Positions 1 through 7,023 of a stretch of DNA of 7,023 bases are shown here, one piece after another. A program made the translations under genes and the position numbers. The notes beneath the pieces were generated by a model that was given only the letters and a program-made list of their open reading frames with translations, did not search any database and was not told the DNA's origin. The DNA is from Candidatus Cloacimonadota bacterium (GTDB taxonomy: Bacteria > Cloacimonadota > Cloacimonadia > Cloacimonadales > TCS61): the NCBI GenBank assembly GCA_030596265.1, contig JAUVKM010000107.1, positions 1 to 7,023 of the forward strand, given 5' to 3'. The stretch's first letter is position 1. Each line of letters begins with the position of its first letter.

Positions 1-1681
1 TGATTTTTAAAAGAACATAATCTACCGGATCTCCGGTTATGGGATTGTAAGTATAACCCTCAATACCACCAAAAGATGGTGAATTATACTCATAAGGTCC
101 GATATCGATAATTGCAGTTCCGTTATTATCTCCATCCCAGATTCTGTGTTTGTAATCCATATCGAAAGGATAATAGTAACCCAGAGTATCAAATCCGGCA
201 TCTATTGCCAGGCTGCCTTCAATTAGATGAAAATCACCGTTTTGGATATTCTCGAAAAGCTGCTGTACTTGAGTAGGATCCACCCAGATATTGCCGCCGC
301 CGTCGATACATTCCGGTGGTAGTTCAAAATCTAAAATGCAGTTGCGAAATATGGGATTACCATATAAATAATTACTGAATAATTCATTATTATATAAAAA
401 TACTATGTTTTCGATAATGTGATTATCAGTTACAGAGGAGAAGATGTATTCATTTTGAATGAATATATTATTACTAAATAAATCATTTCCGCAACCGGAT
501 AAACCTATTATGCTATTCGTAATAATATTATCTGAAATGACACTTATATTGCCAGAAAGAGCATTATTATTTGCTTCATTAATATTGTTTCTCATAAAAA
601 TGCTATTTCCATCACATCCTGTAATATTTGCTTTACATCCCTCAAAATAATTATCTGAAACTTCCACATAAGCATCATAAATATAAATACCATCTCCATT
701 GGTAGCAAAATAATTGTTTTTTATATAGATTGAATCTTCTTCAGAAAATAATGAAAATATACCCTTATCACAACTGCCAAATTCATTATTATAAATGTAA
801 TTACAATTATGAGGATGAGATAAATGCATTCCATCACGATCGTAGGGTACAGAATTAATTGCATTATCTATAAAATATACTGATTTATTTGATAAATAAA
901 GTGAACTACCATTATTAAATAGATTACCTGCTATTAATGGAATTCCCGTATCTATATTGGATACATAACGTATTCGGAAAAAGAAGGATCCTGATACATT
1001 TTGAATAGTGGGATGCGGAAATTCAACATAATCAAAGTAACTATTTATTACCGATATTTCGATTATATTACGTTCAATGCTGACAGCTGTGTCGTTATCA
1101 ATAAATGAACAATGATCTATTAATGCTTTACCATTCCATACTGCAACAGCAGCCCGAACTTGTTCAAATAATGAAAAACCAGTAACGGCGGCATACTCAA
1201 AAACACAATGTTTAAAAAAACTTGTTTCAGCTCCATCTGGCAGATAAATAGTACCCCAATGGTAATATTGTTCATCCTGCATTCGCGTAAAAATGATGCT
1301 GTCTTGTTCAGTACCCTCTGCAATAATTTTACCTTCACAGCGAATAAACTTAGCTTCCGGTTCTTCTCCACCACTGAAATAAAATCCATCATCTCCTAAA
1401 TCATCGTAAAAATCAGAATTGAATTTAACTATTGTACCTGGAAGAATTATTAAAGTAACATCTGCATCTACATAGAGACCGGAAGTTACTATATATGGGT
1501 TGCTCTCCGGTGACCATGTTGTGTCTTCGGTGAGGTGACCACCTACTTCAATTGCATATGCAATTGAAGAATTAGAAATTAGGAATCCGGCTACGCAAAG
1601 AAAAACAAGGAGAATATTGCTACGGCGTGACCAGGGTGTGAAATTTGAAATGAAAAGAATAAAGATTAATCTTATCTTCAT
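1..1681 (-). CDS. Secreted right-handed beta-helix protein with start of a carboxypeptidase-regulatory-like domain (3' end off window)
   Basis: The frame is open from an ATG at 1681-1679 to the left edge, giving 560 codons without a stop, so the C-terminus is missing. The start has a GAGGA ribosome site (1690-1686) and no in-frame alternative ATG/GTG/TTG nearby. Residues 1-43 form an unusual leader: a first hydrophobic stretch, then T-P-W-S-R-R-S-N, then a second stretch ending S-I-A-Y-A, a good signal-peptidase I site. After that come the usual beta-helix opening (hydrophobic strand then I-L-P-G-T-I-V-K-F), G-K-I-I-A-E-G-T-E and I-I-F-T, and many short strands rich in Asn ladders (N-N-Y-F, N-I-I-T-N, N-N-I-F). 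At about 493-535 lies a cap of the I-D-A-G ... R-I-W-D-G-D ... I-D-I-G-P-Y-E-Y type. From about 538, G-G-I-E-G-Y-T-Y-N-P-I-T-G-D-P-V matches the beginning of a carboxypeptidase-regulatory-like (CarboxypepD_reg) domain. A T9SS tail beyond the window is expected but not seen. Substrate or ligand is unknown; the fold is shared by polysaccharide lyases, adhesins and many uncharacterised surface proteins, and no catalytic site could be assigned. Confidence 0.88.
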   Translation of the reverse strand, partial: MKIRLIFILFISNFTPWSRRSNILLVFLCVAGFLISNSSIAYAIEVGGHLTEDTTWSPESNPYIVTSGLYVDADVTLIILPGTIVKFNSDFYDDLGDDGFYFSGGEEPEAKFIRCEGKIIAEGTEQDSIIFTRMQDEQYYHWGTIYLPDGAETSFFKHCVFEYAAVTGFSLFEQVRAAVAVWNGKALIDHCSFIDNDTAVSIERNIIEISVINSYFDYVEFPHPTIQNVSGSFFFRIRYVSNIDTGIPLIAGNLFNNGSSLYLSNKSVYFIDNAINSVPYDRDGMHLSHPHNCNYIYNNEFGSCDKGIFSLFSEEDSIYIKNNYFATNGDGIYIYDAYVEVSDNYFEGCKANITGCDGNSIFMRNNINEANNNALSGNISVISDNIITNSIIGLSGCGNDLFSNNIFIQNEYIFSSVTDNHIIENIVFLYNNELFSNYLYGNPIFRNCILDFELPPECIDGGGNIWVDPTQVQQLFENIQNGDFHLIEGSLAIDAGFDTLGYYYPFDMDYKHRIWDGDNNGTAIIDIGPYEYNSPSFGGIEGYTYNPITGDPVDYVLLKI

Positions 1682-1896: not shown

Positions 1897-4140
1897 TTAC
1901 TTAAGAAGCAACATTTTTTTCATTGCTGATGAATTGCCAGTAGAAATTTTGTAGAAATAAATTCCAGATGATACTGATTTGTTGTTAGCATCTTTACCGT
2001 TCCATTCTATGGAATGCTGACCTGCTGAAAGCTGGTCATTAACAAGCTGTTTTACTTTTTGACCCTTAACATTATAGATTGACAATTCTACATCACCATC
2101 TTCCGGTAAGGAGAAGCTGATTGTTGTAGTCGGGTTAAATGGATTTGGATAGTTGGATAATGTAAACTTTGTAATATCTATTTCATTATCAATAAAATTG
2201 ACACCCTGCCATTCAAATGCTCCCATATCAATGGTCGCACCGTAAATTCGTTGATTTCCAGCAAGATCATATTCTGGAAATTCAATACCATCTGGTAAAA
2301 TATTTGTTCCGTTATCTATACAAGGAGATGTAGAAAGATAATTATAAGGATATTCAGCACCTTCACCTTGAAACTCTGGATTTCCACTTAAATTCCCCTC
2401 TAACCAATTTATTGTAGGATCACCGACCGTATATATATCATCAATTCCATTAGTTAATAAGCAATGATCAACTGTTAATTCAGCTTCATCTCCATCCAAA
2501 TAAACAGGTAAACCTTCATTATTATGTACAACTGAATTTACTAAAGTCAACTGACTTTCATCATCAACTCTGATAATACCACTATTACCACCATATATTG
2601 CATTATCCGCAAAAGTACCATTTATTACATAAGCTTCAGCACCAGCAGCAACAAAGAAGCATAATGGTGGAAAAAACAAATCACCAATACCTGCATTGTT
2701 ATTTAAGAGTAAGTTTTTTAAGATTACAGGATTATCATTCGGGAAAAACGTATTATGACGAACAATAGTCAAAGCCCAGCCATAACAATGTTCTGAACCA
2801 CTTAAATATTGATTGTTTCTAATTATTAGATTTTCAGCTTCTAAATTCGTTGTCCAAAAGCTAGCAGTTCTACCGCAAATATTATCCTCAATTGTTATAT
2901 TTTTCATTATAATGCTATCGCCATCAATAAATGAAATTGCATTGGGAGCATCATCAGAAGTTCTGGGTGTTGCATTTTTTATTGTAATATTCTCAAGATC
3001 AACAGTAAATCTATGCCAAATACTATCAATAGTTGTATAGCAAAATCGAAGTGGAGCACGATGATGCGATTTTAACTGCGAATTTTGGAAAGTGAAATTC
3101 TTAATCACTACTTCTCTTTCTCCATCCATGCCTGTCATAATTGGATAGTATTCATCACCATCGATGATTGTGTTTTCTTCACTTTCTCCAATAATGGAAA
3201 CATAACTTTTAAGGTTAATTGGCAGATTTTCACCAGTAGAATTTGTCGAATACAAACCATCTGCTACATAAATTGAACGAGGATTTAGGCTATCAGCTTT
3301 TACCAGAAGGTTGGCATAAGCAATTGTTTTTAGAGGATTATTCGGTGTTAAACCGCTGTTACCATTACTACCGTTTGGATTTACATACAGATCATTTTGA
3401 ATTTGTTCAATTACTGCTTGTTGGCAGGAAAAAGTATAAGATGCTTCATAGCTACCAATAAATTCATAATCAGGATTGTTAACTGTAAATTTATCGAGAA
3501 TAATATCCACATTTGAAGATAACCAGATATCATTTGCTCTACCTCCAGTATTCAAATAGATACTATTAAGATTATCATTGTCAAACGTAATAAATGCCTC
3601 AACACCAATACACAAACCACCACCGATAAGAATTGCATGATTATTTACAATTTTATTATCTGATAAATTTACTGTTGAATAATAAAGTAGACATCCACCT
3701 CCAATATCTGCTGTGTTATTAATAATATTACAGAATAATATATCCATAACTGAATTGCTAATAAATATACCACCTCCCAAAACATAATTATTTTCTGTTC
3801 CGCTACCATTCTGGATTGTAAATCCTCGCAGAGTTCCATTCTCAACGTTATCAGCATAAACGCAGCTTCCGTTTTGGTTACCATCAATTATTGTATTTTC
3901 GATATAGATGGAGTCACCTGTAATCATTTCAAAACTGGTTAAGACGATAGATTTGTTTTCAATTATTATATTTTCAGTGTAAGTTCCCGGATGTACTAAT
4001 ACAGTATCTCCATCCACAGAAACATCTATTCCCGATTGTATCAACTGAAAAGGAGTAGAACCATTAATATCAACTTCAATAATTAAAGAGAATAAACCCG
4101 TGATTATAAATAAAAATAACATTGCAATTATTGATTTCAT
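1897..4140 (-). CDS. Secreted protein with two beta-helix segments (DUF1565-like) and a T9SS type A sorting tail
   Basis: A 747-residue protein. The start ATG has GAGG 8 bases upstream (4152-4149), and the N-terminus is a short K then a hydrophobic core (residues 4-21), a Sec signal peptide; the exact cleavage site is unclear. Residues about 24-235 form a first parallel beta-helix, with G-D-T-V-L-V-H-P-G-T-Y then strands such as G-G-G-I-F-I and N-I-I-N-N. A second unit begins at about 260 with L-Y-V-N-P-N-G-S-N-G-N-S-G ... P-L-K-T-I and I-Y-V-A-D-G-L-Y, the DUF1565 pattern, and runs to about 600. A cap S-P-C-I-D-N-G ... D-M-G-A-F-E lies at 614-653. From 663 come N-Y-P-N-P-F-N-P, W-N-G-K and S-S-G-I-Y-F-Y-K, the T9SS sorting module that directs export across the outer membrane and attachment or release. 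Beta-helix surface proteins often bind or cleave polysaccharide; no active-site residues could be assigned here, so adhesion or structure is equally possible. It lies 68 bp downstream of the amidotransferase gene, with a strong hairpin between them. Confidence 0.92.
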   Translation of the reverse strand: MKSIIAMLFLFIITGLFSLIIEVDINGSTPFQLIQSGIDVSVDGDTVLVHPGTYTENIIIENKSIVLTSFEMITGDSIYIENTIIDGNQNGSCVYADNVENGTLRGFTIQNGSGTENNYVLGGGIFISNSVMDILFCNIINNTADIGGGCLLYYSTVNLSDNKIVNNHAILIGGGLCIGVEAFITFDNDNLNSIYLNTGGRANDIWLSSNVDIILDKFTVNNPDYEFIGSYEASYTFSCQQAVIEQIQNDLYVNPNGSNGNSGLTPNNPLKTIAYANLLVKADSLNPRSIYVADGLYSTNSTGENLPINLKSYVSIIGESEENTIIDGDEYYPIMTGMDGEREVVIKNFTFQNSQLKSHHRAPLRFCYTTIDSIWHRFTVDLENITIKNATPRTSDDAPNAISFIDGDSIIMKNITIEDNICGRTASFWTTNLEAENLIIRNNQYLSGSEHCYGWALTIVRHNTFFPNDNPVILKNLLLNNNAGIGDLFFPPLCFFVAAGAEAYVINGTFADNAIYGGNSGIIRVDDESQLTLVNSVVHNNEGLPVYLDGDEAELTVDHCLLTNGIDDIYTVGDPTINWLEGNLSGNPEFQGEGAEYPYNYLSTSPCIDNGTNILPDGIEFPEYDLAGNQRIYGATIDMGAFEWQGVNFIDNEIDITKFTLSNYPNPFNPTTTISFSLPEDGDVELSIYNVKGQKVKQLVNDQLSAGQHSIEWNGKDANNKSVSSGIYFYKISTGNSSAMKKMLLLK

Positions 4141-4208: not shown

Positions 4209-6344
4209 TTATTTGAGCATTATCATTCGCTTAGTAACTACAGAATTCTTGGTGGTTAATTTATAGAAATATATTCCTGAAGAAACTATTTTTTCATTTT
4301 CGCCTTTTCCATTCCATACTACAGAATGTTTACCTGCTGTGAATTCTTCGCTGACGAGTGTCTTAACAAGTTGTCCTTTTGTGTTGTAAATTGTTAATTC
4401 TGCTTTACCTGATTCCGGTATTGAGAATGATATTGTTGTAGTTGGATTGAATGGATTAGGGTAATTATCAAGATTCAGTGCATAATTTTGAGGTTTTTCA
4501 ATATCAATTAACTTACCCATCATTACAATAGCATATTCTGTATCACGAGGAGAGATGAACCCTTTCTGCATTTCTCCGCTTTTTAAATCCATAATCTGAT
4601 AATTGCTAACTTGTTGTAACGATCTTGAGCCGTTGTAAACTTCAAACGTTATTTCACCTCCGTTTGGATCGACAAAGGCTTGCAATTGTACTGGCAATTC
4701 AATTACACCAACTGCACCAATACATTCACCATCTTGAAAAGCCCCAATTTCAAGTATTTCTTCTCGGTTGCCGTTATCAATAATATCAATTGATAGATAA
4801 TCAGCTTTTTCTTCGAAAGCAAATGTTTCTGCTTTTCTTGAATGATGGATATCATCGGGTAAGTAGTGACGGTAATCCCACGTGAAGGAAGATATATTTT
4901 GAAAGAATGATACCATATATCCTTTACCAAATTCAAGATATTTTCCTTCTGCCGACCAACAAGGTATTTCAGGTTCTGGTCGTCCTCTTTCTTGACGACT
5001 AAAATACCAATCCTCTGCTTTTACTGAACGTACATTTGACCATTCCTCACCAAAAGCATCATCAATTCGTTGTGAAGGCATTAAATCATATCCAATCCAG
5101 TAATACTGATAACCTTGAATGTTTTCTAAGATTGGTTCACTGGATTCACGCATCTCTCCAATTGTGTTAAAACAATCATTATAATGGACAGGGTTTGTAT
5201 TTGATGTCATATTAAGCTTGTACAAAGATTTATCATCAAATTGAAAATAGGAAGGAATCCAGGAGCCAGAAAAGGAATTATAAATTGGATTACCAATGCT
5301 TAAACCTTCAACTTCTGTAATTCCACCGTTTGTTTCTAAGTAGTCAAGGATATCAGCACCATTATTGGTTGTAGTTGGAAAAATTGGAAAACCTTCCCAA
5401 TTCCATCCTGCATAAAGTGTTCGATTATGTTGGATTTCGTCATTTTGATCACTACAATTCCTGATCGATACTTTTTGCTTGGTAGGAGATAAATACAATA
5501 ACTCATCATTAACCATAGCAGTAATGAGTGTACCTGGATCATCAGGAAACTTACTCATAACTGCCCAATAATAATCCGGAGCTATCCAAGTGTAATACAG
5601 ATCGTGATCAACCACAGCATCATAACTGTTCTTATAACAATAAAGATCAATACCATCTGTTAGAATGAACGTTCTGTCCTCAGTACCTAATGACCCCATA
5701 CCTTTAATAGCATCAATAAGACCCTCAAAAACATTATAATCATTCAATTCGATGTTAAGCATAATCCACGAAAACAAATATTCAGAATCAATATAGTGAG
5801 GAGGTTGGGCATAATATGTTATTGGATGATTAATGAGCCAAGATGGATCCAAAGCATTTATTAAACCTTCAAAATACGTTGGATTTACACTACCATTATG
5901 CATAAATGCGTAATCTGCATTTGCAGAACTGAAAATGAATGGATGTGGATTGTTTATCCCTGTAACATTTGTTGAGCGTCTTACGTGACCTAAAATTACT
6001 TGAGCATTTGCATCTTCTACTATTCCTTGCTGTGTGTTGTATGTAGCTGAATTATGTGCTTGATCTTCATCTCTGTAAATATAATCAATTAACATATCAC
6101 CTTTTAGATAATAGGCAAGACTCCATCCATGAATATTATAATATGGATGGCCACCACTTGAACCACCTTGTAATTGTAATTCCTCAAGGTAATTATGAAC
6201 ATAATATTCTGAATCTGTGAGATTATAACCCATATGAGCACTCATAGCCATCATTCGGCAATCTGCACTTAACACAACTGAACTTAAACTAATCGTAATT
6301 AACATTAATATTATCAATATTGACTTAATGTTTTTGGAAAACAT
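4209..6344 (-). CDS. Exported class II glutamine amidotransferase (YafJ-like, Ntn-hydrolase fold) with T9SS sorting tail
   Basis: I start this gene at the ATG at 6344 (711 residues) because AAGGAG lies 7 bases before it and the product then opens with a clean signal peptide. An ATG at 6398 would add 18 residues before the basic region and has no comparable ribosome site. Residues 1-27 are K-N-I-K then a hydrophobic core ending V-L-S-A. Cys29 begins C-R-M-M-A-M-S-A, matching the YafJ start C-R-L-L-G-M-R-A. Other matches to class II amidotransferases are H-G-W-S-L-A-Y-Y (72-79), G-H-V-R-R-S-T (119-125), N-P-H-P-F (132-136), H-N-G (149-151), D-S-E (186-188) and I-L-T-D-G (227-231). In this family the N-terminal Cys attacks the glutamine amide and the N-G pair helps form the oxyanion hole. 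The fold ends near 290. Residues about 309-510 (G-W-N-W-E-G-F-P at 313-320) and about 525-605 (beta-rich, containing G-E-C-I-G-A) were not assigned to a family. N-Y-P-N-P-F-N-P at 627 starts the T9SS tail. No synthase or ammonia-acceptor domain is present, so a stand-alone amidohydrolase acting outside the cytoplasm is a reasonable inference; substrate unknown. Confidence 0.85.
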   Translation of the reverse strand: MFSKNIKSILIILMLITISLSSVVLSADCRMMAMSAHMGYNLTDSEYYVHNYLEELQLQGGSSGGHPYYNIHGWSLAYYLKGDMLIDYIYRDEDQAHNSATYNTQQGIVEDANAQVILGHVRRSTNVTGINNPHPFIFSSANADYAFMHNGSVNPTYFEGLINALDPSWLINHPITYYAQPPHYIDSEYLFSWIMLNIELNDYNVFEGLIDAIKGMGSLGTEDRTFILTDGIDLYCYKNSYDAVVDHDLYYTWIAPDYYWAVMSKFPDDPGTLITAMVNDELLYLSPTKQKVSIRNCSDQNDEIQHNRTLYAGWNWEGFPIFPTTTNNGADILDYLETNGGITEVEGLSIGNPIYNSFSGSWIPSYFQFDDKSLYKLNMTSNTNPVHYNDCFNTIGEMRESSEPILENIQGYQYYWIGYDLMPSQRIDDAFGEEWSNVRSVKAEDWYFSRQERGRPEPEIPCWSAEGKYLEFGKGYMVSFFQNISSFTWDYRHYLPDDIHHSRKAETFAFEEKADYLSIDIIDNGNREEILEIGAFQDGECIGAVGVIELPVQLQAFVDPNGGEITFEVYNGSRSLQQVSNYQIMDLKSGEMQKGFISPRDTEYAIVMMGKLIDIEKPQNYALNLDNYPNPFNPTTTISFSIPESGKAELTIYNTKGQLVKTLVSEEFTAGKHSVVWNGKGENEKIVSSGIYFYKLTTKNSVVTKRMIMLK

Positions 6345-6351
6345 AATAAAA

Positions 6352-6357
6352 CTCCTT
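6352..6357 (-). promoter_or_regulatory. Strong ribosome binding site AAGGAG that sets the start of the amidotransferase gene
   Basis: AAGGAG on the minus strand is 7 bases before the ATG at 6344. This is the best Shine-Dalgarno match in the window. It selects 6344 over the upstream in-frame ATG at 6398, which would bury the signal peptide behind 18 extra residues. Confidence 0.75.
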
Positions 6358-6633: not shown

Positions 6634-7023
6634 TTAATTTGTATTATAATTCAATATCAAATTTGTATTAGTACTTTGTCCTATAAAATCACTTAATGCT
6701 CTTTGAAGCTTCAATTCTTCAACAGGTTTAGAGATAAAGATTCCCGATTTTATCTGAGAAGTCTCTCGTTTAGTTACTCTATCTATATAAGCAGAACAAA
6801 ATACTATCGGTATTTCATGCTTCTCTCCAATTTTTATAGCGGCATTAATTCCATTTAGCTCACCATCCAGATTAATATCCATGAAAATAACATCCGGTGT
6901 TAAACTGTCCGCAAAGGCAATTGCTTTCTCACCTGAAGATACCATGGCAATTACTTCATGACCAAAACTCTGTAAGGTTAATTTTAAATCTTCTGCTATT
7001 ATCAATTCATCTTCAACTATCAA
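6634..7023 (-). CDS. Response regulator receiver (CheY-like) domain, N-terminus cut by window edge
   Basis: Within the window 130 codons (129 residues plus stop) are visible. The first visible codon, TTG, is probably an internal leucine: receiver domains usually open with a few residues then I-L-I-V-E-D-E, so the true start lies beyond 7023. Counting from this codon, the acidic pocket is E4-D5-E6, the phospho-acceptor is D49 in V-I-F-M-D-I-N-L, the switch Ser is S77 in V-F-C-S-A-Y, and the invariant Lys-Pro is K99-P100. All key residues of a working two-component receiver are therefore present. After the domain only a short Asn-rich tail follows, so no DNA-binding or enzymatic output domain is attached on the C-terminal side. 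It is either a stand-alone single-domain regulator passing phosphate to a partner or the last domain of a hybrid histidine kinase; the missing upstream sequence would decide. It is 289 bp from the amidotransferase gene with a hairpin between, so co-regulation is not implied. The I-I-A-E-D-L and D-G-E-L-N-G-I-N-A-A motifs are typical of receivers paired with PAS-type sensor kinases. Confidence 0.9.
   Translation of the reverse strand: MIVEDELIIAEDLKLTLQSFGHEVIAMVSSGEKAIAFADSLTPDVIFMDINLDGELNGINAAIKIGEKHEIPIVFCSAYIDRVTKRETSQIKSGIFISKPVEELKLQRALSDFIGQSTNTNLILNYNTN

Follow-up and report, generated by a model that had tools for sequence, protein, structure and literature searches.

Class II glutamine amidotransferases (GATases) act inside the cell as ammonia donors to synthases, and most true amidotransferases carry a synthase domain in the same chain, although the fold family does not require one. 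EgtC, an Ntn hydrolase of ergothioneine biosynthesis, is such a stand-alone hydrolase, cytoplasmic and lacking a signal peptide, a T9SS tail and the chassis module described below, and DUG3, which acts together with DUG1 and DUG2, has neither T9SS tail nor chassis module. Exported enzymes with the Ntn Cys immediately after a signal peptide are found among penicillin V acylases, bile salt hydrolases and C69 dipeptidases, which are other Ntn families and not class II GATases. Fungal DUG3 is presented, in the relevant passages of PMC12653102 and PMC9012958, as a class II GATase and part of the DUG1/DUG2/DUG3 breakdown of glutathione, and a passage of PMC2739207 states that all functional Ntn hydrolases known in 2009 were activated by autocatalytic cleavage. 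Bacteroidota T9SS cargo such as the gingipains combine a signal peptide with a type A sorting domain, as is predicted for the protein studied here, but have another catalytic domain, and the chassis module and beta-helix partner gene belong to the present system. A search of open-licence PMC articles for exported class II GATases, a T9SS form, exported Ntn enzymes, Ser variants and Cloacimonadota T9SS did not find this family described, which is weak evidence of absence, and the available part of PMC7073777, on T9SS-linked polymorphic toxins, does not describe it. What we report is a large and apparently unstudied family of class II GATase-type proteins that are predicted to be exported.

Layout of the locus and fold of the catalytic domain

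The window, by which we mean the whole 7,023-nt stretch of Candidatus Cloacimonadota DNA that was analysed, carries the following features, all on the minus strand:

6634-7023 (-), truncated gene with a response-regulator receiver domain, interrupted where the window ends and lying upstream of the GATase gene
6352..6356 (-), ribosome-binding site AGGAG, 7 nt 5' of the ATG, read from the sequence
6264..6344 (-), predicted signal peptide formed by residues 1-27, an h-region followed by L-S-A, placed by eye with the -3/-1 rule
6258..6263 (-), Asp28-Cys29, a one-residue spacer and the presumed N-terminal nucleophile, from alignments and conservation in relatives
5418..6260 (-), catalytic domain of the class II GATase (Ntn-hydrolase) kind, residues 29-309, from Pfam GATase_4 and structure match
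4812..5420 (-), repeat part of the chassis module, with one repeat at residues 309-403 and the other at 404-511, from hhalign of the halves and the model
4503..4811 (-), beta-sandwich part of the chassis module, residues 512-614
4212..4481 (-), T9SS type A sorting domain, residues 622-711, from profile matches
1897..4140 (-), gene 68 nt downstream of the GATase gene for the partner, a protein of 747 aa that combines a hydrophobic N-terminus with a right-handed beta-helix and a T9SS tail
2-1681 (-), third gene, downstream of the partner, with a hydrophobic N-terminus, running off the window

The third gene had no match in a Pfam search and probably encodes another beta-helix protein. A choice-of-anchor Q match to it is weak (17.7 bits, under the cut-off of 25), and several T9SS-tailed ORFs of relatives begin with the same A|IEVGGH.

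Membership of the window protein in the class II GATase fold family is firm. It matches PF13230 (GATase_4) at 31.8 bits against a curated cut-off of 23, structure comparison of the predicted catalytic domain gives an Ntn-hydrolase fold of the class II GATase type, and YafJ-like class II GATases (PA 1te5, SPO2029 3mdn) are its top profile matches among solved chains. Alignments with EgtC (at its residue 2) and with GlmS/PurF (at residue 1) start at model residue 29, which places Cys29 in the register of the nucleophile, and R122, H149-N150-G151 and D186 of the active site are all present. With EgtC (PDB 4zfj/4zfk/4zfl), whose chains are about 230 residues long, the window protein shares the Ntn fold and the Cys register at 16-17% identity over the aligned part. 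The sequence-only reading had proposed a signal peptide, a YafJ-like core and a T9SS sorting tail in one chain, and had suggested a profile search against GATase_4 and a structure prediction as checks; both came out in its favour, and the three parts are indeed found together, the signal peptide being judged by inspection. In YafJ-like class II GATases a Met precedes the Cys, whereas the window protein has a predicted signal peptide in that place; M|C is also seen in two cytosolic-looking Neomarinimicrobiota proteins (L200 and L201, ORFs of 274 and 296 aa). A Pfam search found no synthase domain in the chain, the remainder of which is a module without a Pfam match and the T9SS tail, so that a synthase-linked amidotransferase function is not supported, and judging from its sequence the protein is probably a hydrolase rather than a transferase.

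Family size and conservation of the active site

The protein database contains 11 homologs of nearly full length, and both GATase_4 and a T9SS tail are present in 11/11. Two of them (P0007 and P0009) have called starts just past the Cys that are probably wrong, so automatic annotation probably loses their signal peptide and nucleophile. Database homologs number 1025 in all; in the 120 of these that were listed, R122, H134, H149, G151, D186, S187 and E188 are present in 120/120, N150 in 119/120 and C29 in 119, the one other row lacking its N-terminus, and the residue before the Cys in those 119 is Ala in 112 and Gly in seven. With the single window protein as query a search of genome contigs gave no confirmed relative; with an alignment as query it gave four. 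A scan of 124 Cloacimonadota genomes with the catalytic domain matched 63 at E<=0.001, with a strong match (E<=1e-14) in 51/124 and only a weak best match (E >1e-7), mostly to ORFs of PurF/GlmS size, in 12/63; the richest genome (G096) has 10 matches, corresponding to about eight separate family ORFs. In Neomarinimicrobiota 127/245 genomes were matched, 57 of them at E<=2.3e-14.

For closer comparison 80 Cloacimonadota loci yielded 80 domain ORFs (L056 and L073 contributed two apiece, and no such ORF was detected in L118 or L122) and Neomarinimicrobiota yielded 68 distinct ORFs, samples that leave out a few partial matches and one match with an internal stop. Across 81 Cloacimonadota rows (the 80 ORFs and the window) residue 29 is Cys in 72, a gap in five truncated ORFs, Ser in two, Ala in one and Thr in one, and R122 is kept in 80, H149 in 76, N150 in 74, G151 in 80 and D186 in 75. 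The 68 Neomarinimicrobiota rows, which include three that look cytosolic (L200-L202), have Cys in 61 and Ser in seven, with H120, H134, H149, G151, D186 and S187 in 68/68, R122 in 67 (one X), N150 in 66 and E188 in 65. Members that are otherwise complete show HHG (L044, L096, L169), HGG (L188), ANG (L062) or QNG (L055, L097) in place of HNG. The sequence-only reading hung on Cys29 and H-N-G not being commonly lost, and we observe the opposite of such loss, both being kept in the great majority of both phyla.

The four Cloacimonadota rows that have neither Cys nor a gap (L077, L113, L116 and L119) lack parts of HNG and DSE as well and for this reason look like dead copies. Such heads with a clearly missing active site, and the beta-helix heads that the same chassis bears elsewhere, are what one would expect if the exported GATase domain were a non-catalytic head that serves a surface chassis as amino-acid sensor or as adhesin; we regard this as quite doubtful, since Cys or Ser together with R, HNG and DSE is retained by the great majority across very divergent sequences, and since the nucleophile lies at or beside the signal-peptide junction. 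In two Cloacimonadota ORFs the GATase domain is embedded in a longer protein, from about residue 336 in L053:240-3410, which retains a Cys after Glu, and from about residue 701 in L077:618-4856, which lacks the Cys and other site residues. Shortened GATase relics (L057:3806-4285 and L103:5040-5789, ORFs of 160 and 250 aa) adjoin a full-length partner ORF.

The presumed nucleophile and the signal-peptide junction

Signal peptides were scored by hydrophobicity and the -3/-1 rule, not by SignalP, and by inspection the window protein has a hydrophobic N-terminus with Ala at -1; database homologs that have an N-terminus keep Ala ahead of Asp/Glu or immediately ahead of the Cys. The Cys is present in 71/80 Cloacimonadota ORFs, 68 of which have a hydrophobic stretch ahead of it (all except L053, L057 and L070), and in these 68 the preceding residue is A in 25, D in 19, E in 12, N in four, G in three, S in three, T in one and C in one, two of the Glu cases (L054 and L055) having two acidic residues before the Cys. 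The hydrophobic test was passed by 62/68 Neomarinimicrobiota ORFs, the failing six being three that look cytosolic, one cut by a contig end and two just below the threshold, and the 62 junctions are A|C 35, P|C 14, A|S 6, G|C 3, S|C 1, E|C 1, D|C 1 and G|S 1. Pooling both phyla (n=130), the residue is a usual signal-peptidase one (A, G, S, T or C) in 79, D/E/N in 37 and P in 14, and nothing else occurs. From this pattern we infer that removal of the signal peptide would expose, or nearly expose, the nucleophile. Asp is not expected as a residue after which signal peptidase I cuts, and we therefore assume a second processing step for the window protein, where Asp28 would be left in front of Cys29. 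Pro before the cleavage point is likewise a poor site under the -3/-1 rule, and for that reason the P|C junctions (L144-L149, L151, L155-L157, L159, L163, L168 and L171) hint at self-cleavage or another peptidase.

As a control, 96 other T9SS-tailed ORFs were taken from these loci, and a Cys stands in a comparable stretch of 10 of them, one of which (L122) is a missed family member; the comparison is loose because the profile used to choose the family ORFs itself contains the Cys. Crude +1 sites of this other cargo are mixed, with Thr commonest and D/E/N in 18/57, and 39/96 ORFs gave no site. The PurF propeptide ends E|C, and we considered whether D/E before the Cys mirrors it; this was not seen in 20 PurF-type loci of both phyla, 19 of which start M|C (18 as a printed junction, L233 from its start), the other (L234) having a short propeptide that ends in K.

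A Cys near a signal-peptide junction might also be the lipidation site of a lipobox rather than a nucleophile, and 19/128 Cys junctions do fit the strict lipobox [LVI][ASTVI][GAS]C. We find this reading highly improbable, as the other 109 fall outside it, many with D, E, N or P before the Cys, the window junction S-A-D-C does not fit, seven Ser members have an intact active site, and a lipidated Cys would leave the conservation of R/HNG/DSE unexplained. Points against our preferred reading, that of a catalytic N-terminal nucleophile, are the Asp and Pro junctions, the HNG variants among otherwise complete members, and the chance that an exposed N-terminal thiol may be prone to oxidation outside the cell.

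The relevant part of a review (PMC9140057) gives Cys as the nucleophile of class II GATases and Ser as that of penicillin G acylases. In Neomarinimicrobiota Ser stands at the junction of seven ORFs (L162, L184, one of the two in L191, L195, L196, L198 and L214, with codons AGT, AGT, TCC, TCC, TCA, AGC and TCA in that order), and all seven retain R, H, HNG and DSE. A quick FastTree tree of 148 rows, with residues 29-30 left out and 41/145 inner branches open, places eight changes between Cys and Ser, two of them on the degenerate Cloacimonadota rows L077 and L113, and gives no direction; among intact forms there are six, or five if L162 and L184, which share a codon and sit at an open fork, have a common origin.

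Secretion, the chassis and a proposed function

The sorting tail proposed from sequence scores over cut-off with both PF18962 (Por_Secre_tail, 34.7/27) and TIGR04183 (46.3/23), and relatives encode the matching machinery, SprA being over cut-off in 17/17 and PorU in 14/17 of the chosen relatives' genomes and each in 0/14 controls. Cloacimonadota are also named among FCB phyla possibly having T9SS in a passage of PMC11285876. The window protein is predicted to be exported from the bacterium.

Between catalytic domain and tail lies the chassis module, which has no Pfam match in any of 41 members (0/41). Its two repeat halves (309-403 and 404-511) match each other with an hhalign probability of 91.7%, and because the whole-protein model falls mostly under pLDDT 60 across the module, residues 300-620 were folded alone, with a mean pLDDT of 88.4. 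Foldseek gave no solved-structure match at E<=0.001, which is no proof of a new fold, and VIA gave weak rows only, nearly all over the beta-sandwich. The module is present in 103/124 Cloacimonadota genomes, with at least 18 matches in one of them (G088), and elsewhere, loci L245-L264 included, bears other heads, among them secreted C10 and C25 cysteine peptidases, beta-helices and unknown heads. A homologous partner lies immediately downstream in 43/44 testable ORFs elsewhere that combine GATase and module. We propose that the module (about 309-615) and tail form a reusable T9SS chassis, with the beta-helix protein encoded downstream as its partner at the surface.

Taken together, we cautiously favour, at somewhat better than even confidence, an exported and catalytically competent class II glutamine-amidotransferase-type Ntn amidohydrolase that is matured at Cys29, delivered by T9SS and carried on the chassis with its partner. 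The protein would leave the cytoplasm by Sec through its signal peptide and be cut by signal peptidase I after Ala27, Asp28 would then be removed by self-processing or an aminopeptidase to leave Cys29 as N-terminal nucleophile, and for many relatives removal of the signal peptide would by itself be sufficient. T9SS would transfer the folded protein to the cell surface or outside, where the site of Arg122, His149-Asn150-Gly151 and Asp186 would hydrolyse glutamine or gamma-glutamyl amides with free alpha-amino and alpha-carboxyl groups, giving glutamate and ammonia or an amine with no need of a synthase partner. The intact glutamine-type site argues for this substrate class, and the C10/C25 peptidases on the same chassis argue for a degradative role. 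The earlier suggestion of an extracellular amidase, acting for instance on glutamine or gamma-glutamyl peptides, is supported, the activity itself being predicted.

In class II GATases an Asp and an Arg hold the alpha-amino and alpha-carboxyl groups of free glutamine, and their retention here favours free glutamine or N-terminal gamma-glutamyl groups over another target for the same exported fold, such as deamidation of protein-bound glutamine or cleavage of a surface polymer, for example poly-gamma-glutamate. We consider such a target unlikely, although proteases occur among the chassis-mates, and three Cloacimonadota genera are reported, in a passage of PMC8542988, to synthesise poly-gamma-glutamate.

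More tentatively still than our preferred reading of an exported amidohydrolase, we offer the wider possibility, about which we are more doubtful than confident, that in two FCB phyla a large lineage exported the class II GATase fold with signal peptidase as its maturation enzyme, so that secretion would activate the enzyme. No longer bound to Met-Cys processing, this lineage may have exchanged Cys for Ser on about five or six occasions, which would make these the first class II GATase-type hydrolases with a Ser nucleophile, and some of its members may have come to ride a two-gene T9SS chassis with exchangeable heads in most Cloacimonadota.

Since the chassis module has no Pfam model and yet is so widespread in Cloacimonadota, its characterisation would aid the annotation of many secreted proteins. 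The junctions A|C, A|D-C, P|C and A|S, a series provided by nature, could be used to probe the requirements of an Ntn site, and the family would offer a clear test of signal peptidase as the activator of an Ntn enzyme. A class II GATase family built for export would add a type of extracellular amidase to bacterial nitrogen and peptide turnover, in bacteria known mainly from sequence.
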